This document shows, piece by piece, positions 6,719 to 14,557 of a DNA stretch of 40,139 bases. The stretch is from the IMG/VR virus record IMGVR_UViG_3300048113_000098, positions 1 to 40,139 of that record; one strand, 5' to 3'. Numbering within the stretch: position 1 is the stretch's first letter; each line of letters starts with the position of its first letter. A program made the translations under genes and the position numbers. Under the pieces are notes generated by a model. That model had not been told where the DNA came from, made no database searches, and saw nothing but the letters and a program-made list of their open reading frames with translations. Source of the DNA: a virus.

Positions 6719-8755
6719 TTATTTTGATGTTGCTCTAAAGATCCCATCCCAATCCTTTGGGAGATCTTGTGTCTTCATATACTTACAACGTTCAATCCAG
6801 ATGTCATAATAGTCATCCATATGACCTTCAAACTTGCCTTTCAGATCTTTACAAATCTCAATAGCCGAATCAAAATGTTGTGTTCCATAGAAGTTATGCA
6901 TGGTGTTGTGATTGAGCATATCCGCACCATGTTTGTTACGGTCAATATCTAATACCGTATATATCTCTAAACCCACACTCTTACCTTTAACTGCAAGATC
7001 GTCTAGTTTGAGATAGAAGAAATCATCTTCTGTTAGGTTGTAGGTATGGGGTCCTACAATTAAAAGAACCCCATACCCTTTGCATGCGCTTTCTAGTCTT
7101 GCGGCTGTACTGACACTGTCTCCGAGGATATCATAGGAGTGTCTGGATGTAGAACCCATCTCTCCAATATAACCAAGGCCAGTATTAATGCCGGCACCCA
7201 TACCCACTTGCGGTTTACCTTGTTCCATAAGTTTTTCATTAAATTTCTCCACTGCTTTAAGCATGTTTAGTCCTGTCTGAACTGCCGTTTTCGGATGGCT
7301 AGGATCATTAACAGGAGCGTTGTGTATGTGCATAGTTGCGTCACCAATGTATTTGATGATCATTCCACTTGCATCTAACACAGGTTGTGTAATTGCATCC
7401 ATATAATTGTTCATCACTGTTGTCAAACCTTTAACATCATTTCCGAACGATTCACCCAATGGGGTGAAACCTCTAAGATCAGAGAATACAATACTTACTT
7501 CTTTCTTCTGACCTTCTTTAATTAGTTGTGGGTTCTTCTGTAGGATCTCCACAACTTCTGGTGAAGCATATCCACCAAATTGTTTCTTAATAGCTTGTTT
7601 CTCTAAGAATTCTCTAACAAACTTAATACCATATACTTGTAGTGCTATGATTACAAAGACAATGGTAGGGGCTGTTACATCTATTAACATCTTTTCTGTA
7701 GCATACATGTGCATTGAATATGGTATAACTGATCCAATAAGACCTACTGTTGCTATCAGCCCTACTATCATCCATTTGCTTAATGCGATTAATAGAAGTC
7801 CACCAACCACAAGACCAAGTAGTTCTGCCATAGAAGCCCAATCAGGACGTTGAATGTTAGTTCCGTTAAACATTGTTCCTAGAACTGCCGCTTGTACTTC
7901 ACCAGAATATACAGATCCTATGGCTGTAGGCGCTGGGTTGGTTATACCTGCGGCTGTCACGTCCACGATAACAACTGCACCACCAAAGTCTTTAGGAAGA
8001 TCTGTTAAGGATACTCTCTTACTCTTTTGACTCCAATCAATCCATACACGACCTTCACTGTCTGTAGGGATAATACCAAACTGTGGTATTCTCATCTTCT
8101 CTACACCATTGGGTTGCATTTTGATTTGAAAACTAATGTCGCCTGCTAATACACGCAACGTCTCTAGTGCCAAACTAGGATAAAGAGTACCATCCACCAT
8201 AGCAACAGTTGGCATACGTCTAACCACACCATCTATCTCTGGTTCTGTACTGACAATTCCAGCCCCAACAGAGTTATTCTCTAATACAGGGACGTTAGCG
8301 ATTATACCATTGTATGGTAAAATTGTATCCAAATACTCTGGATTGATAATAGCCGCACCTGGATTGATAGGTTCGTTCTTAGTCTTATCGCTAGGACGTG
8401 AGGATAAAACGACAGGATAGTCATATAGGATATTTCCCATATAGGCATCACCACCTAGTCGATCTTCTTCGGGCATCATGATTGTCCAGACCACAAGACC
8501 TGCACCCGAATCATATAAACCTTTTATTATATCACCATAAACGTTTCTTGGAAAGGGGTATTGTCCATACTTGTTCAGAGTTTCTTCATCGATCTCTGCA
8601 ATATAGATGTTATTCTCAACAGGATCTTGATTGACAATTAACTGGTCAAAGTAATTGAGTTTAATACTTTGAATAAAGTTAGATGGATATACGAATGTAT
8701 ATACCAAGACTGCTAGAGTTAAAATTGCCCACCAAGGACTCAATAGTTTCTTCAT
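6719..8755 (-). CDS. CHASE2-domain membrane-bound class III adenylate/guanylate cyclase
   Basis: A 678-residue membrane protein that would make cAMP or cGMP in the cytoplasm. Domains in order: TM1 (about 7-24); an extracytoplasmic CHASE2 sensor (about 30-300, with FDQLI, AEIDEETL, YPFPR and DGVVRRMP); three membrane segments (about 310-375); and a C-terminal class III cyclase catalytic domain (about 416-600). Both metal-binding Asp residues are present: D426 in VFSDLRGFT and D472 in IKYIGDATM. The region GINTG...YDILGDSVSTAARLE follows, with Arg (R553) kept but Ser at position 550, where most class III cyclases have the transition-state Asn. It is the last gene of the curli operon, coupled by TAATG. 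Cyclases are rare in phages. Substrate (ATP or GTP) is undetermined. Confidence 0.9.
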   Translation of the reverse strand: MKKLLSPWWAILTLAVLVYTFVYPSNFIQSIKLNYFDQLIVNQDPVENNIYIAEIDEETLNKYGQYPFPRNVYGDIIKGLYDSGAGLVVWTIMMPEEDRLGGDAYMGNILYDYPVVLSSRPSDKTKNEPINPGAAIINPEYLDTILPYNGIIANVPVLENNSVGAGIVSTEPEIDGVVRRMPTVAMVDGTLYPSLALETLRVLAGDISFQIKMQPNGVEKMRIPQFGIIPTDSEGRVWIDWSQKSKRVSLTDLPKDFGGAVVIVDVTAAGITNPAPTAIGSVYSGEVQAAVLGTMFNGTNIQRPDWASMAELLGLVVGGLLLIALSKWMIVGLIATVGLIGSVIPYSMHMYATEKMLIDVTAPTIVFVIIALQVYGIKFVREFLEKQAIKKQFGGYASPEVVEILQKNPQLIKEGQKKEVSIVFSDLRGFTPLGESFGNDVKGLTTVMNNYMDAITQPVLDASGMIIKYIGDATMHIHNAPVNDPSHPKTAVQTGLNMLKAVEKFNEKLMEQGKPQVGMGAGINTGLGYIGEMGSTSRHSYDILGDSVSTAARLESACKGYGVLLIVGPHTYNLTEDDFFYLKLDDLAVKGKSVGLEIYTVLDIDRNKHGADMLNHNTMHNFYGTQHFDSAIEICKDLKGKFEGHMDDYYDIWIERCKYMKTQDLPKDWDGIFRATSK

Positions 8756-9174
8756 TAGTTACCGTTTTGGTTTATGTTAAGTGTACAACCGTAATCAGCC
8801 CAACAACTTCCATTAACAGTATATGACATACTATTAGTTCCATACTGTGTTGAATTGATATCTGCCATACCCTGACTTCCTGTTGTGATATTTATAGTCA
8901 CCGAATGATTACCAGATCCTGTCTGAGATATGTCAAAGTCATGTGGGGTTCCATCCATATCAAGATATGCGTATTTATACGATCCTGTCTGTGTCAATGC
9001 CACATCATTACCATCACCATCAACGATGATTTCTGCCTCATGGTTCTCTCCATCTTGAGTTACACTTAAAATAAACTCATCACCTATCTGAGTAATATCT
9101 AAGTCATTGGCAAAACTAGCGTTGCTGATAAATGTCAATAGAGTTGTTAGTGCTATCGCCCAACCTGTAGTCAT
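8755..9174 (-). CDS. Curlin-like secreted amyloid subunit (CsgA/CsgB-type repeats)
   Basis: A 139-residue secreted protein. A signal peptide (residues 1-22, ending SNASFA) is followed by imperfect curlin-type repeats: LDITQIGDEFILSVTQDGENHEAEI, VALTQTGSYKYAYLDM, FDISQTGSGNHSVTINI, ADINSTQYGTNSMSYTV and TLNINQNGN. The Q-x-G-x-x-N spacing is that of the CsgA/CsgB amyloid core. Two Cys near the C-terminus (C126 and C132) may form a disulphide. The gene overlaps the FecR gene by 59 nt; a GGGAG before the ATG supports this start. It is short like a nucleator (CsgB is about 150 residues), but major and minor roles cannot be assigned. Export would be through the CsgG pore encoded upstream. Confidence 0.8.
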   Translation of the reverse strand: MTTGWAIALTTLLTFISNASFANDLDITQIGDEFILSVTQDGENHEAEIIVDGDGNDVALTQTGSYKYAYLDMDGTPHDFDISQTGSGNHSVTINITTGSQGMADINSTQYGTNSMSYTVNGSCWADYGCTLNINQNGN

Positions 9175-10252
9175 ATAACTCCCAATCGTTTTGTTGAAGA
9201 TCTATGGTATAACCATATGCCTGATTTAGTCTTAATTGTACGAAGTTCTCTCCGCTATCATTTCTTCTAGAGAACACCCAATTAGGTGTTTCGTTTATTA
9301 GTGATATTCCTGTTAATGGATCGTATCCATATATGTTTGATTCTTGTTTCAATAGTAGTGCATTCTGATCTGCAAGCTCATCACTAAACAATCTCTTTAA
9401 TGCTTCATTCAACTGATCTAGCATGTCATACAATAAGTCTTGAAGGTAATCTATATCCATATCAAGTTCAGTAAGCCAGATGCCTTCTATAGAATCAACC
9501 AAGGCATCATATTCTAATCCATCAAATTGTAAGAAGTCTAGTCCTAAAAAGTCTGCCCTCTCTCTTTGCTCATCCAATAACCTTGTCTGTTCTTCATAGT
9601 ATGGGTTCTTCTTTCTTAGAATTAGAAGTTGATTGATCATACTTTCATCAATGTCCAACAAAAGTGGTGGTGTTGGTTTACTCGTACTAGTAGAAGCTAT
9701 AGTAACTTGGAAAGCTTTATTAAGTATAACAAACCCAGCGTCAGTCTCTACTGTTATCTCTCCTGTATAACAAGATCCAGAAATGTCACAAGACGGAAGT
9801 AGTGTAATCATACTACCACCTGTTTCATCTATAACCATTGCAAAGTCTGTACCACGAACAGCAATCGTTGCTGATGGTGTGCGTATTCTAACACGTTGCC
9901 TACTGTTCTTAGCAATCTGTCCACTGGCATATCGTACAGTGCCAAGACTTGCTTTAAGACCAAGTGATCCTTTTCCAGTATTAGGATCATAGACAAAGTC
10001 ATCAATGATTAGTCGAGAATGTTCTGTTATATCAACTCGTGTATCATCTACAAAATCTATTCTCATTTTAGACTTGGCAGTTATTGCCGTGTCCATCAAT
10101 TCTATAAGAGTACCCTTACTTGTATCAATCGCATCATTACCACGCTCAATAGCCGCACTACCAGATTTTCCTGATAGCTGTACAATCTCTCCTATGTTTG
10201 CATAAGCAGAGGTTGTTATCAAAACAAATAACAAAGCAAGAGACTTAAGCAT
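9116..10252 (-). CDS. Exported FecR-domain protein within the curli operon
   Basis: A 378-residue protein with a signal peptide (residues 1-18, ending TSAYA) and then a FecR domain at about 20-150: NIGEIVQLSGKSG, ITAKSKMRIDFVDDTRVDI, SLGTVRYASGQ and VRIRTPSATIAVRGTDFAM. Classical FecR proteins are inner-membrane sigma regulators. This one has a cleavable-type signal and no later membrane span, so it should be periplasmic or exported. The C-terminal half is acidic and helical (LDEQRERADFLGLDFLQFDG, LYDMLDQLNEALKRLF). FecR domains occur beside surface polymer and adhesin genes in proteobacteria. It lies between the two curlin genes and is coupled to the upstream one by TAATG, so a role in fibre assembly or anchoring is likely. 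Confidence 0.8.
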   Translation of the reverse strand: MLKSLALLFVLITTSAYANIGEIVQLSGKSGSAAIERGNDAIDTSKGTLIELMDTAITAKSKMRIDFVDDTRVDITEHSRLIIDDFVYDPNTGKGSLGLKASLGTVRYASGQIAKNSRQRVRIRTPSATIAVRGTDFAMVIDETGGSMITLLPSCDISGSCYTGEITVETDAGFVILNKAFQVTIASTSTSKPTPPLLLDIDESMINQLLILRKKNPYYEEQTRLLDEQRERADFLGLDFLQFDGLEYDALVDSIEGIWLTELDMDIDYLQDLLYDMLDQLNEALKRLFSDELADQNALLLKQESNIYGYDPLTGISLINETPNWVFSRRNDSGENFVQLRLNQAYGYTIDLQQNDWELYDYRLGDSTNNSIDIYQQR

Positions 10253-10968
10253 TAGTCAGATTGCGTAATATTGATTTGGTGATCATCACCATTAGTATGA
10301 AGGTCTACAATGTTGTCGTATACTCCGCTTTGGTTTACCACAACTGCATGATCACGACCTTTCATGTCTAGTATTATTGTGTGTCCATTTATATCACCAT
10401 CGCCAGCTACATCAATATCTAACGTACTGTTAGTTGATGCTAAACTTGAGTTCTCGTCAATAGTTACAGTTACGATTGCGCTTTTGCCGTTAATGTCTGT
10501 TGTTATCACGTTTCCGCTATCATCAACTGTAAAGTTTACTGTTGCACCTTCAGCATCTGCCGATTGTCCTATGTTAATAGTATAGTCTTGGTTATCGCCA
10601 TCGGCATCAATGTTAAGTGTAACGGTATCACAATCTCCACCTGTGCTACTAGAGCATAGCAAGTCTATTTCGTTTCCACTACCAGTTATATCCCAAGTAC
10701 CTGTGTAAGTAGAACCTAAGATTTGTGCAGTGATTGCGTTTGTGTTACCTGTCTGAGTTATACTGAATGTCATGTCATCAGACGCACCAGAGGATGAACC
10801 AAGAACTACGTCTTGGCTACTAGTACCAATAGTGTTGTTTTGACCATCTTGTACGATGTCTAAGTCAAGTGTATCACCTACTTGTTTTATATAGATATCA
10901 TTAGCGTATAGTGTAAGGGGTGCAAGTAATATTGCACTCATCATAATGAGTTTTCTAAAATGTCTCAT
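10252..10968 (-). CDS. Curlin-like secreted amyloid subunit, larger paralogue
   Basis: A 238-residue protein with a signal peptide (residues 1-22, ending LTLYA) followed by curlin-type repeats: IYIKQVGDTLDLDIVQDGQN, MTFSITQTGNTNAITAQI, WDITGSGNEIDLL, YTINIGQSADAEG and, at the end, AVVVNQSGVYDNIVDLHTNG then HQINITQSD. Central repeats are diverged and Asp-rich (NIDADGDNQ, DIDVAGDGDING), perhaps giving calcium-sensitive or weaker packing. It ends directly on the last repeat, as CsgA does. It lies 10 nt after the CsgG gene and is probably the major subunit by length, although roles are inferred. Confidence 0.8.
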   Translation of the reverse strand: MRHFRKLIMMSAILLAPLTLYANDIYIKQVGDTLDLDIVQDGQNNTIGTSSQDVVLGSSSGASDDMTFSITQTGNTNAITAQILGSTYTGTWDITGSGNEIDLLCSSSTGGDCDTVTLNIDADGDNQDYTINIGQSADAEGATVNFTVDDSGNVITTDINGKSAIVTVTIDENSSLASTNSTLDIDVAGDGDINGHTIILDMKGRDHAVVVNQSGVYDNIVDLHTNGDDHQINITQSD

Positions 10969-10978
10969 TTTCTTTCCT

Positions 10979-11773
10979 TTATCCGCCTGTTTTTGGGTCT
11001 ACCAAAAACGACCAGAATTGCTTCTTTTCTCCTTCATTAATCAATTCAATCACACCAGCCTCTATTGCTGATCTTACTGCATAATTAACTGGCTCGTTCA
11101 CACTAGAGCCAGATTCTGCTTCTACAAGTTTCGTACCCATATCAAAGAATCTGAATACGTCTGCACCACTTTGGTGACTTGCTATGTTCTTTTCTGTAGC
11201 TACACTTAGTAATATTTTACCAGTGCTCACACTTACTAATCTCATAACAATTGTTACAGTATCAACTCTATACTGTTGCTGAACCCCAAGACCAAGATAC
11301 CTTGCTCCCAATCCACCTGTAGCTACACTTGAGTCATAACCAACTATACCACCCTCAAGTATTAATCCAGCGAACACCATAGGCTTGAGTGGTGTGGGTC
11401 CGTTTGCCAAATCCTTTTCATACACTTCACGTGTATTTCTAACTAACTGTCTTTCTCTGACCAAGTTGTCAAGACCAACTCTCTCAACTGTTTCAAACCA
11501 AGTTCCAGATCCAACATCTTGTAATGCCTTGATCACCCAAACTTCTGCACCTTGGGTAACAGCACTACTTAAACTCGAATTCCCAGGCTTCCTTTGTCCA
11601 GTTTTATCCGCAAAAGAATAAACAGCAATGGTCATTTTCTTTCCATCTAACTGTTCATAATCAGAAATCGAATTAGGAGAACTTTGCACCTTGGGAGTTT
11701 CACCAAGAGGATATTGGCTAGGGTCTACACACCCCATAAGAAGTGAAACAATCGTAATCAAAACAAAACGCAT
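10979..11773 (-). CDS. csgG: CsgG-type curli secretion lipoprotein (outer-membrane pore)
   Basis: A 264-residue lipoprotein (E. coli CsgG is 277). The signal peptide ends in the lipobox LLMGC with Cys15 as the lipidated residue. Conserved CsgG segments follow: MTIAVYSFADKTGQRK, SSAVTQGAEVWVIKALQDVG, FETVERVGLDNLVRERQLVRNTRE, ILEGGIVGYDSSVATGGLGARYLGLG, QYRVDTVTIVMRLVSVSTGKIL and FRFFD. CsgG forms a nonameric outer-membrane channel that exports curlins. It overlaps the CsgF gene by one base. No CsgE (gating cap) or CsgC is visible in the window. Confidence 0.9.
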   Translation of the reverse strand: MRFVLITIVSLLMGCVDPSQYPLGETPKVQSSPNSISDYEQLDGKKMTIAVYSFADKTGQRKPGNSSLSSAVTQGAEVWVIKALQDVGSGTWFETVERVGLDNLVRERQLVRNTREVYEKDLANGPTPLKPMVFAGLILEGGIVGYDSSVATGGLGARYLGLGVQQQYRVDTVTIVMRLVSVSTGKILLSVATEKNIASHQSGADVFRFFDMGTKLVEAESGSSVNEPVNYAVRSAIEAGVIELINEGEKKQFWSFLVDPKTGG

Positions 11774-12237
11774 CAGAAGTTAAACTCCCCTGATCCCGGA
11801 ATAGTAATCGTTGTAGTACCATCATCATTTGTTATGACTAGGGTAATAGATCCTGTAGTTGAATCTTTAGACCATTCAATCGTACTTCCCTCAATCTCCG
11901 TAGATCCGCTAGTGGCACAATCATCACTTGTACACTCTGCAAACATAGAATCTACCATCTGTTTACTCAGTGTTGCGTATATTCTACTCTCAAGGTTCTT
12001 AATAAATTTGTTTAATGTAGTATTCTCTAACTCACGCTCAATGCGTTTCGCTTCAGCTTCCATTTCATCTCTTCGATCTTTATTCCTATTGAACACTAAT
12101 TGTTCAGTGGATAATACATGAGAAGAGTATCCTTGCCCATTAAAGGCAGGGTTCTTAAATGTAAACTGTAATTCTGCGTTACTTTGTGTTGGGAGTAACA
12201 CCAAAGCTATTAGGCTTAGGGTCTTCTTTGATATCAT
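11773..12237 (-). CDS. csgF: CsgF-type curli assembly factor
   Basis: A 154-residue exported protein. The signal peptide (MISKKTLSLIALVLLPTQSNA) is followed at once by ELQFTFKNPAFNGQGYSSHVLSTEQLV, the CsgF N-terminus that plugs into the CsgG pore (E. coli form: GTMTFQFRNPNFGGNP). The rest is a helical neck and a beta-rich C-terminus ending in F. The start at MISKK is preferred because it begins the signal peptide; a longer frame upstream would put basic residues before it. It overlaps the membrane-protein gene by 59 nt. CsgF couples secretion to nucleation at the cell surface. Confidence 0.85.
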   Translation of the reverse strand: MISKKTLSLIALVLLPTQSNAELQFTFKNPAFNGQGYSSHVLSTEQLVFNRNKDRRDEMEAEAKRIERELENTTLNKFIKNLESRIYATLSKQMVDSMFAECTSDDCATSGSTEIEGSTIEWSKDSTTGSITLVITNDDGTTTITIPGSGEFNF

Positions 12238-12526
12238 CTTCTTCGCCACTCGTATTAAATTTCTCATTCTTGGTCTGGTTTTGTGCAACCTCTTTGTCCA
12301 TACCTCTATGTTCTAGGACAATAGAAAGCTTTGAGTTGAGTCTGATCATATCATTATCAAGCATACGTACTCTGTCTACCAACTTAATTAGCGTAACCAT
12401 AGTTTCACCAATAACTGGATCTATGGTCTCCGTAACCCACTTCCAAATAAAGTAGATAAAGTAGCCCATTCCAACTGCGGCAACAATAGGGAAGCCGTAG
12501 TCTTTTATGGCTTGGGCTATATCCAT
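12179..12526 (-). CDS. Small membrane protein with C-terminal coiled coil, paralogue of the 12893-13171 protein
   Basis: A 115-residue protein: MDIAQAIKDYGFPIVAAVGMGYFIYFIWKWV is one membrane segment, then ETMVTLIKLVDRVRMLDNDMIRLNSKLSIVLEH is a heptad-like coiled coil, then a charged, disordered tail. The arrangement, the MDI start and the LDNDMIRLNSKLS pattern match the 12893-13171 protein, so the two are likely duplicates. Small phage proteins of this shape are sometimes holins or spanin-like. Its place in front of csgF instead suggests a membrane partner of the secretion system. Function is not established. Confidence 0.7.
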   Translation of the reverse strand: MDIAQAIKDYGFPIVAAVGMGYFIYFIWKWVTETIDPVIGETMVTLIKLVDRVRMLDNDMIRLNSKLSIVLEHRGMDKEVAQNQTKNEKFNTSGEEDDIKEDPKPNSFGVTPNTK

Positions 12527-12727: not shown

Positions 12728-12893
12728 CGACTTCTCCGATTCTTTCAAAATATCCATTATATCCTATCCTATATGTTTCACCAATTTTTAGTCTAACATC
12801 GTCAATCACAAAGAACTTATCTTCAGTATCTTTGTTATTGAGAATGCGAAAACCATTCTCGAACTTCATTAGAAGTAAATCTTTCCAAATCAT
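12714..12893 (-). CDS. Small hypothetical protein, TAATG-coupled
   Basis: A 59-residue frame (MIWKDLLLMKFENGFRILNN..., ending RIGEVDDVA). Its ATG overlaps the stop of the upstream membrane protein (TAATG) and its end overlaps the next gene. The GETYRIGYNGYFERIGEV stretch is beta-like. The tight overlap on both sides supports it as a real gene despite its size. Function unknown. Confidence 0.5.
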   Translation of the reverse strand: MIWKDLLLMKFENGFRILNNKDTEDKFFVIDDVRLKIGETYRIGYNGYFERIGEVDDVA

Positions 12894-13171
12894 TAGTCTC
12901 TCCTTGCATCATCTTTACCTTCGTTAGCCGCTATACGGTCTATGTTAGGTTTAACATTCAAAGCATAACTAAGTAAGGCATCGATCTTTACTAGATCATT
13001 GTTCATTGTTTGAACCCTATTATCTAAGGATCCTATTATACTCTTAAGCGTTGTTACTGATTCTGTAACACTCGCTAGGATAAATTTAAGTGATATAAAG
13101 ACAAAGATCCCAGCAGCGATTGCCCCTGCAATTGGAGTTCCCACATCACCTATCAAATTGAATATATCCAT
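12893..13171 (-). CDS. Small membrane protein with coiled coil, first gene of the late curli operon
   Basis: A 92-residue protein. The membrane segment GTPIAGAIAAGIFVFISLKFILASV is followed by heptads in TTLKSIIGSLDNRVQTMNNDLVKIDALLSYALN and a charged tail. It resembles the 12179-12526 protein in layout and in the DNRVQTMNNDLVKI pattern. A late promoter lies only five bases before the ATG, so the transcript would have almost no leader unless translation starts elsewhere. It could be a holin-like or secretion-associated protein; no direct evidence decides. Confidence 0.65.
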   Translation of the reverse strand: MDIFNLIGDVGTPIAGAIAAGIFVFISLKFILASVTESVTTLKSIIGSLDNRVQTMNNDLVKIDALLSYALNVKPNIDRIAANEGKDDARRD

Positions 13172-13270: not shown

Positions 13271-14038
13271 TTAAAATGAGAAAGATAGGTTGACTGAAGG
13301 TGAAAGTACTTCACTGTTCAAGTCATAATTAAGTTTACTTTCGATAGATGCGGCATCATTAAGACCAAGTAGGTAAGATGCACCTGCATTCTGTGTCATG
13401 TCATTTTGGTCACCATTCAAGTAACCTGTAACACCTAGAAGTGTTGTTGAACCTTCGTATGCCCACACATCATTTGCATATGTCATTACTGTGTCAACAT
13501 GTTGGTCACGTACTTCAATTCCTAAGCCTGCACCAACTGCGATTTCTTTAGTATCGATGTTATAATCGGCAGAAGTTTGTGCTGTAACCCCACCTAATGT
13601 AAGTTCATATGCACCTTGTACACTTGCAACGTCTGTTACATCTGTGCCAATGTCTGTGAAAGAAAGACCTACACTTGCACCTGAGATAGCGATTTGTGCT
13701 GAAGTTCCCATTGATGGGTTAGCTAGTGGGCTGTTTGCCGCAGAAGCTTCACCTTCCACAAAAAGGTTTCCTTGCTTACCAAAAGATACGCTTGTTGCGC
13801 CAAGTGCTGTACCTACATGCCAGTCACCAATGCTTAGTGAGTTATCTGATCCAGCAACTACTTCAACTGAACCAAAGGCATCGCCTACGGCAGTTACATC
13901 TAGTGCTACTGATTTAGCGGCAGTGTATTTTCCCGCCGTGTTTTCTGTGATGTCAATATCAACATCTACTGCAAGATCTGCCGCATTTACGACACTTGCT
14001 GTAGCAACCATTGCTAGAGAAGAGATTAAAGTTTTCAT
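13271..14038 (-). CDS. Phage-encoded outer-membrane beta-barrel-like protein (porin-like)
   Basis: A 255-residue protein. A signal peptide (MKTLISSLAMVATASVVNAA) is followed by alternating strands with very few charged residues and the terminal sequence SPSVNLSFSF. The C-terminal Phe with alternating hydrophobics is the usual BAM recognition signal. About ten strands could be drawn (for example ASVGLSFTDIG, YELTLGGVTAQTSADYNI, IAVGAGLGIEV, TVMTYANDVWAYEGS, SIESKLNYDL). AAGGA precedes the ATG. No promoter is evident between it and the tmRNA, and it ends at its own terminator. It may mask or replace a receptor, or support curli export; I cannot tell which. Confidence 0.7.
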   Translation of the reverse strand: MKTLISSLAMVATASVVNAADLAVDVDIDITENTAGKYTAAKSVALDVTAVGDAFGSVEVVAGSDNSLSIGDWHVGTALGATSVSFGKQGNLFVEGEASAANSPLANPSMGTSAQIAISGASVGLSFTDIGTDVTDVASVQGAYELTLGGVTAQTSADYNIDTKEIAVGAGLGIEVRDQHVDTVMTYANDVWAYEGSTTLLGVTGYLNGDQNDMTQNAGASYLLGLNDAASIESKLNYDLNSEVLSPSVNLSFSF

Positions 14039-14065
14039 TCTTATTCGTCCTTGTTAATTGTTAAT

Positions 14066-14230
14066 ACGACTTTTCTGTTGCTAGGTAAGTCGCCAACCCC
14101 CTGTGATTATGCCGCTAGGCGTAATCCAGATGGTGCAAAGTTATTGTTTGCATTTAGTGATTTGACCAATCTCGCAGTCACCCGGTAAACTCCACTTCAC
14201 TACAACACCTGTCGATCCTAGTTCTGCCCC
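14066..14230 (-). ncRNA. ssrA: tmRNA coding piece (permuted two-piece tmRNA)
   Basis: The minus strand begins GGGGCAG (14230-14224), followed by AACTAGGATCGACAGG, which matches the tmRNA 5' end and D-loop (E. coli: GGGGCUG...GGAUUCGACGGG). The tag reading frame starts at GCA (14149-14151) and encodes ANNNFAPSGLRLAA, ending at TAA (14107-14109). The ANN start and LAA end are those of degradation tags. A CGACTT/AAGTCG hairpin (14087-14092 with 14067-14072) follows. GGGGCAG pairs with CTGCTCC of the acceptor piece located upstream, including a G3-U70 wobble, the alanine identity element. The 3' end is approximate. Confidence 0.88.
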
Positions 14231-14232
14231 AT

Positions 14233-14461
14233 CATAAATTATCGTTTTCTTTTTAAATAGTTTTGATATTCTTCGTAACTATCTTCACCCTTTTGCCACT
14301 GTTTATAATCACCTTTGGTCTGGGCATCTATTTGCATTTTTTGAACACTAACACCTTTGGTGCGCTTCATAGGTTTACCTTTTTTGATTTCACCACCGTT
14401 TTTTAAAAAGGTGTCAATCAAATCTTTATAATCACTCATAATATAACTCCGATAATTTATG
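14233..14461. repeat. 12-bp perfect inverted repeat framing the tmRNA loop ORF
   Basis: CATAAATTATCG (minus, 14461-14450) and CGATAATTTATG (minus, 14244-14233) are exact reverse complements. The first arm starts within the CCA of the acceptor piece. The second ends two bases before the GGGG of the coding piece. They extend the tmRNA acceptor stem and close a loop containing the ORF at 14239-14439, whose stop codon lies in the second arm. Confidence 0.85.
14239..14439 (-). CDS. Small basic protein encoded inside the tmRNA intervening loop
   Basis: A 66-residue basic, probably helical protein (MSDYKDLIDTFLKNGGEIKKGKPMKRTKG..., ending NYLKRKR). GGAG lies eight bases before the ATG at 14437-14439, so it has its own ribosome binding site. 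It occupies the whole loop between the acceptor piece (ends 14460) and the coding piece (starts 14230), and its TAA is inside the inverted repeat. Translation and tmRNA processing would therefore compete on one transcript. A longer open frame runs upstream through the acceptor RNA but has no ribosome binding site. No family recognised; the charge would suit RNA binding. Confidence 0.7.
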   Translation of the reverse strand: MSDYKDLIDTFLKNGGEIKKGKPMKRTKGVSVQKMQIDAQTKGDYKQWQKGEDSYEEYQNYLKRKR

Positions 14462-14521
14462 GTGGAGCAGTTGGGTACTGCCCCCAAGTCCAGTATGCGT
14501 TCACGTTGCTTCAACGTTTAC
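14460..14521 (-). ncRNA. ssrA: tmRNA acceptor piece (permuted two-piece tmRNA)
   Basis: On the minus strand a T-arm, TTGGG (14487-14483) - GGCAGTA - CCCAA (14475-14471), is followed by the 3' acceptor strand CTGCTCC (14470-14464), discriminator A and CCA (14462-14460). Stem of five and loop of seven are tRNA-like; the loop is not the usual TTC type. A CGTTG-AAG-CAACG hairpin lies at 14504-14516. The acceptor strand pairs 7/7 (with G-U at position 3-70) with GGGGCAG 230 nt downstream. The 3' half preceding the 5' half is the alphaproteobacterial permuted arrangement. The 5' end is set by the promoter and is approximate. Confidence 0.87.
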
Positions 14522-14528
14522 AGTTTAT

Positions 14529-14557
14529 ATAGTAACATAAGGAGCTAAAAGTGTAAA
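14529..14557 (-). promoter_or_regulatory. Sigma-70-type promoter of the tmRNA gene
   Basis: TTTACA (14552-14557), 17 bp, TACTAT (14529-14534) on the minus strand. The predicted start near 14521-14522 falls just before the acceptor piece, which supports an early tmRNA transcript. Confidence 0.75.

Follow-up and report, generated by a model that had tools for sequence, protein, structure and literature searches.

The cyclase that closes a phage cluster of curli and FecR genes is, with a probability that we put at roughly two in three, a working transmembrane sensor enzyme, most likely converting ATP to cAMP and serving as the output gene of this curli (T8SS) and FecR signalling cluster. The window, by which we mean the whole stretch of DNA analysed, is the IMG/VR virus contig IMGVR_UViG_3300048113_000098, of 40,139 nucleotides. 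It bears T4-like genes for DNA polymerase, clamp, clamp loader, UvsX, an SbcCD-type nuclease and a late sigma factor, which confirm that it is viral; we read it as a T4-like marine phage. The cyclase gene is a real open reading frame (ORF call and translation) with its ATG start at 8755; its main features are as follows.

6719..8755, minus strand: CHASE2 plus class III cyclase, 678 aa (PF05226, PF00211; phrog_35576; AlphaFold2)
7796..8710, minus strand: CHASE2 sensor domain, residues 16-320, following an N-terminal transmembrane helix at residues 7-22 (Pfam PF05226, E 6e-32)
6977..7513, minus strand: class III cyclase catalytic domain, residues 415-593 (Pfam Guanylate_cyc PF00211, E 3e-18)
7322..7333, minus strand: M475-H476-I477-H478 motif, mostly M-A-F-W in bacteria and Asn-type phages
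7130..7132, minus strand: Asp542 codon, second base-selecting residue, paired with Ser549 in every relative examined
7109..7111, minus strand: Ser549 codon, transition-state Asn position (CyaB/CyaC alignment; clade table)

The original prediction of a phage-encoded CHASE2 sensor cyclase is thus borne out by both Pfam domains and by the T4-like genes on the same contig. The protein matches phrog_35576, whose listed function is unknown, along its full length (E 5e-179). Hydrophobic helices at residues 4-22, 316-334 and 356-374 bracket the CHASE2 domain with transmembrane segments, in agreement with the helices of the AlphaFold2 model. This model (mean pLDDT 90.5, from a 76-sequence alignment) runs from a transmembrane helix through a periplasmic alpha/beta domain, further transmembrane helices, a long helix and the cyclase fold to a helical tail, and among PDB structures Foldseek matches it best to CyaB, a class III cyclase (TMt 0.89, E 1.8e-15). 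Alphaproteobacterial CHASE2 cyclases, such as CyaD1, CyaD2 and CyaK of S. meliloti (PMC13001267), share the same domain order and fold.

The cyclase is the last gene of a cluster ordered csgF-csgG-curlin-fecR-curlin-cyclase, which is collinear in the relatives with enough flanking sequence, phages Melnitz and HTVC008M included.

12893..13171, minus strand: small membrane-anchored protein, 92 aa, second of a pair (phrog_18771; recurrent tandem pair near the module)
12179..12526, minus strand: small membrane-anchored protein, 115 aa, paralogue of the preceding one (phrog_18771; same tandem pair)
11773..12288, minus strand: CsgF (PF10614, E 2e-13)
10979..11773, minus strand: CsgG outer-membrane secretion pore (PF03783, E 3e-50)
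10252..10968, minus strand: first curlin-repeat-like protein, its N-terminus like a signal peptide (assigned by position and by likeness to curlin-associated proteins of Melnitz and HTVC008M)
9116..10252, minus strand: FecR-domain protein, 378 aa (PF04773; phrog_37870; signal-peptide-like N-terminal segment)
8755..9174, minus strand: second curlin-repeat protein, signal-peptide-like N-terminus (PF07012; NCBIfam CsgB-like, under the curated cut-off)

CsgF probably starts at an internal ATG, the one that opens MISKKTLS..., and Pfam yields no confident match for the first curlin-like protein itself. PF04773 is the only Pfam match of the FecR protein, in which no anti-sigma domain was detected; with its signal-peptide-like start in place of the cytoplasmic N-terminal anti-sigma part, it does not read as an iron regulator of the E. 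coli FecR type and is probably secreted. The two small proteins upstream of csgF are linked to the module by association only. They carry MLDND/MNNDL motifs and are found close to the module in 59 loci, in some of which they lie on the other strand.

Such clusters are known from pelagiphages (PMC9599517, PMC7029224, PMC9004378), in which csgF and csgG were first reported in PMC7029224. The pelagiphage T8SS/curli cluster of PMC9599517 has the same gene set and order as the window, with an adenylate cyclase last, so that a full-length membrane cyclase is not the unusual phage cargo it had been taken for. That paper calls the gene just an adenylate cyclase and its main text does not bring up CHASE2, nor were the catalytic subtype and domain swaps described below seen in the passages considered here. 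In the podovirus clusters it describes, one or two histidine kinases come first, whereas the 115- and 92-aa proteins of the window showed no kinase domain (no Pfam match; PHROG function unknown). Cyclase cargo in the curli cluster was therefore already known; what we add is the clade-wide Ser549, the three catalytic types, the domain swaps and the conservation of the enzyme. The pelagiphage cluster had remained unexplained, and its enzyme now displays what is apparently a virus-only catalytic subtype.

Does the sensor recognise the fibre whose genes it adjoins? The CHASE2 domain might bind the phage's curlin subunits or FecR directly and report secretion status, a reading that concerns the ligand and is compatible with our preferred explanation. 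The genes are adjacent and collinear, and in bacteria, too, FecR genes adjoin CHASE2 proteins: cyclases in 7 of the 21 loci examined (a count made with a profile from phage FecR proteins, several loci having short flanks), and a kinase in Burkholderia (PMC5192318). These bacterial neighbourhoods suggest that the FecR-CHASE2 pairing is probably older than the phage cluster. However, distances among CsgF, CsgG, the first curlin and FecR correlate at 0.92-0.96, whereas those of CHASE2 correlate with the same four at only 0.59-0.76 (CsgG 0.76, FecR 0.70), so the sensor seems to move partly independently of the module genes. The moderate value for FecR led us to reject it as a specific co-evolving partner. 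Likewise, the relative L049 is 74% identical to the window in CHASE2, but only 27% in the first curlin and 36% in FecR. Since closely related sensors adjoin such different curlins and FecR proteins, the fibre-subunit sensing proposed in the original prediction is not supported by these comparisons, and we regard a direct fibre sensor as unlikely. Given these correlations, the coupling that we infer between the cyclase and the T8SS/FecR genes rests on gene order.

The catalytic residues of the phage enzyme are D426, K468, D472, D542, S549 and R553. Across an alignment of 76 phage and bacterial proteins, the metal Asp residues D426 and D472 never vary, nor do K468 and R553; both metal Asp and the Arg had been correctly read as conserved. 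In the stretch ...GDSVSTAARLE..., Ser stands opposite the transition-state Asn of CyaB and CyaC, which rules out a misaligned Asn position and upholds the substitution as first noticed, except for its number: counting from the ATG makes it residue 549 and not 550. The phage cyclase thus has the class III fold, two metal Asp and the transition-state Arg, and Ser549 at the site of an Asn that is usual in this class though not universal. Its absence does not exclude class III membership, as an enzyme with Ala at this site is active (PMC4215837). The base-selecting pair K468 and D542 is of the adenylyl type.

Is Ser549 a damaged residue? In our sample of 63 distinct viral sequences, which was gathered with patterns derived from the query and enlarged by Melnitz and HTVC008M, includes the window and some fragments, and does not measure population frequency, we found Asp542 with Ser549 (the type that has the MHIH motif) in 38, Thr542 with Asn549 in 22 and Ser542 with Asn549 in 3, and no other combination. 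Among the 60 nearest bacterial cyclases examined, a set to which the S. meliloti proteins named above do not belong, 48 have Ser542/Asn549 and 12 Thr542/Asn549, unlike the window; none is of the Asp/Ser type. Ser is therefore normal in the phage clade and not in these bacteria. It is also no lone loss in one record. Each of the 23 sequences that represent the Asp/Ser clade keeps D542, S549, H476 and H478, and the markers H476, H478, I467 and T550 are fixed or nearly so in this type and rare or absent elsewhere.

When the tree of the catalytic domain is computed with columns 542 and 549 removed, the Asp/Ser type still forms one clade (100/100), on a long branch beside the phage Thr/Asn type, while HTVC008M and L049 fall apart from it, among bacteria. 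The Asp/Ser type thus appears to be a phage-only clade with a single origin among phages. On the strength of the alignments and this tree, Ser549 is the norm of its clade and, as it is accompanied by other clade-specific catalytic changes, marks a distinct catalytic subtype rather than a damaged residue.

A bacterial source of the Asp/Ser type was sought and rejected: the nearest bacterial cyclases are all Asn-type, and the DNA pattern YDxLGDxVSxA, a strict one, matched 1 of the 398 Pseudomonadota genomes to which the scan was confined. The sole match is a Rhodobacteraceae MAG (G001) with two contigs, L082 and L084, that bear the phage cyclase; since L082 carries the full phage module, these contigs are probably phage DNA inside the bin.

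The three catalytic types occupy the same phage locus, and their distribution requires 3 changes on the catalytic tree against 8 on the CHASE2 tree. Two relatives display the conflict within single proteins. L049 resembles L012 as far as about residue 360 and HTVC008M past about 400, with the switch at about 361-400. Phage Melnitz (a Methylophilales phage, MZ577097.1, MelnitzEXVC044M_104) has the same gene order and the same Asp542/Ser549 and MHIH subtype as the window, with a catalytic domain 75% identical to it and L051-like, but its CHASE2 domain is HTVC008M-like (54% identity to that of HTVC008M, 34% to that of the window); its identity switch lies at about 300-380. In HTVC008M itself (a Pelagibacter phage, I899_gp019), a CHASE2 cyclase likewise ends the same cluster, but its Ser542/Asn549 catalytic domain groups with bacterial cyclases and it lacks the C-terminal tail. 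AU tests rejected the grouping of L001 with L002 on catalytic data (p 6e-59, log-likelihood drop 134) and of L049 with L002 on CHASE2 data (p 9e-11, drop 126); these groupings were picked after viewing the identity table, which makes the p-values optimistic, but the log-likelihood drops are large. Uniting all Asp/Ser sequences as one clade on CHASE2 data gave only p 0.043 (drop 346), and our case for domain swaps is built on the other two tests, which are stronger. The conflict between sensor and catalytic trees indicates that catalytic domains were swapped several times onto related CHASE2 sensors. Since phages would have exchanged the Asp/Ser domain with two Asn-bearing types in this way, the three types are probably interchangeable producers of cyclic nucleotides. 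L049 and Melnitz are natural chimeras for asking whether the Asn is needed, and whether phages make cAMP in streamlined marine bacteria.

These swaps, together with the invariant catalytic residues and a low catalytic-domain dN/dS (0.02-0.13 in most comparable pairs, with synonymous sites near saturation in several and one almost unchanged pair uninformative), favour an active, ATP-using cyclase over a scaffold. Catalytic activity, ATP as substrate and cAMP as product are what we infer from sequence. Loss of the Asn need not be fatal: the mycobacterial class III enzyme Ma1120 has Ala at this position and is active as an adenylyl cyclase, and A164N cuts its activity drastically (PMC4215837), and Rv1900c and others also lack the transition-state Asn (PMC4886424). 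Compared by description, Ma1120 and Rv1900c are likewise active without it, but have Ala or His at the site, not Ser.

Alternatively, the enzyme may be active with a changed chemistry, its remodelled pocket taking GTP, CTP or UTP or yielding another product. Such remodelling could account for coordinated clade-specific changes, among them two invariant His shortly past the metal ligand D472, and for D542 and S549 occurring only together. However, Lys468 and Asp542 form the standard adenine-selecting pair, which adenylyl cyclases conserve for substrate binding (PMC4215837), and Asp542 brings the phage enzyme nearer to textbook adenylyl cyclases than the Ser/Thr542 of its bacterial CHASE2 relatives, so that we hold this reading to be quite improbable. 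A pseudoenzyme that binds nucleotide without catalysis, its role being that of a scaffold for the sensor or the dimer, one of the two options originally envisaged, would fit a whole clade devoid of the Asn, with further active-site changes (MHIH for MAFW, I467 for Asp) on a long branch, but is quite improbable in view of the invariant metal Asp, Lys and Arg, the low dN/dS, the repeated interchange with Asn-type domains on related sensors and the activity of known Asn-less cyclases (PMC4215837, PMC4886424).

A bolder and tentative proposal, to which we lend limited credence, is that T4-like marine phages evolved a class III subclass of their own, with a Lys-Asp/Ser-Arg site and an MHIH metal-strand motif, which they would pass around as a cassette beneath CHASE2 sensors; this subclass would differ from bacterial cyclases in kinetics or product and sustain a second-messenger pathway apart from the host's.

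Under the preferred reading of an active sensor cyclase, the CHASE2 domain would face the periplasm, and the transmembrane bundle and long helix would couple it to the class III cyclase, which presumably forms a homodimer in the cytoplasm of the infected cell. The phage-only catalytic subtype keeps the ATP-selecting Lys468-Asp542 pair, Arg553 and MHIH, with Ser549 for the transition-state Asn. The nearest well-studied parallel comes from S. meliloti, whose CHASE2 cyclases raise cAMP in response to an external protein perceived via NsrA, a barrel of the outer membrane (PMC13001267). If the phage protein works in a similar way, its CHASE2 domain may signal the condition of the CsgG system in the outer membrane or that of periplasmic FecR. 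The cAMP may then act via a host receptor. A phage-encoded receptor was discarded, as a search for cNMP-binding proteins (PF00027) came up empty in 11 related phage records, the complete Melnitz and HTVC008M among them; none was found either in two small alphaproteobacterial genomes of about 29% GC, which stand for the sort of bacterium that these phages might have as a host.

Several minor observations concern the cyclase tail and the surroundings of the cluster. A free-standing 108-aa protein encoded at about 2513-2836 on the plus strand of L052 is similar to the helical tail at the C-terminus of the cyclase (residues ~601-678), and a search of BFVD returned a 104-aa viral protein, A0A6J5T5F8, matching some part of the cyclase model. 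No glutamine riboswitch reached the Rfam gathering score in the window, whereas one is reported for Melnitz (PMC9004378). Upstream of the small-protein pair, positions 13271-14038 of the minus strand encode a 255-aa protein with a signal peptide and a C-terminal Phe, which has no Pfam or PHROG match and looks by eye like an outer-membrane beta-barrel. Next to it, at 14016-14555 on the same strand, lies a permuted two-piece tmRNA gene of the alphaproteobacterial type (Rfam RF04321/RF01849).
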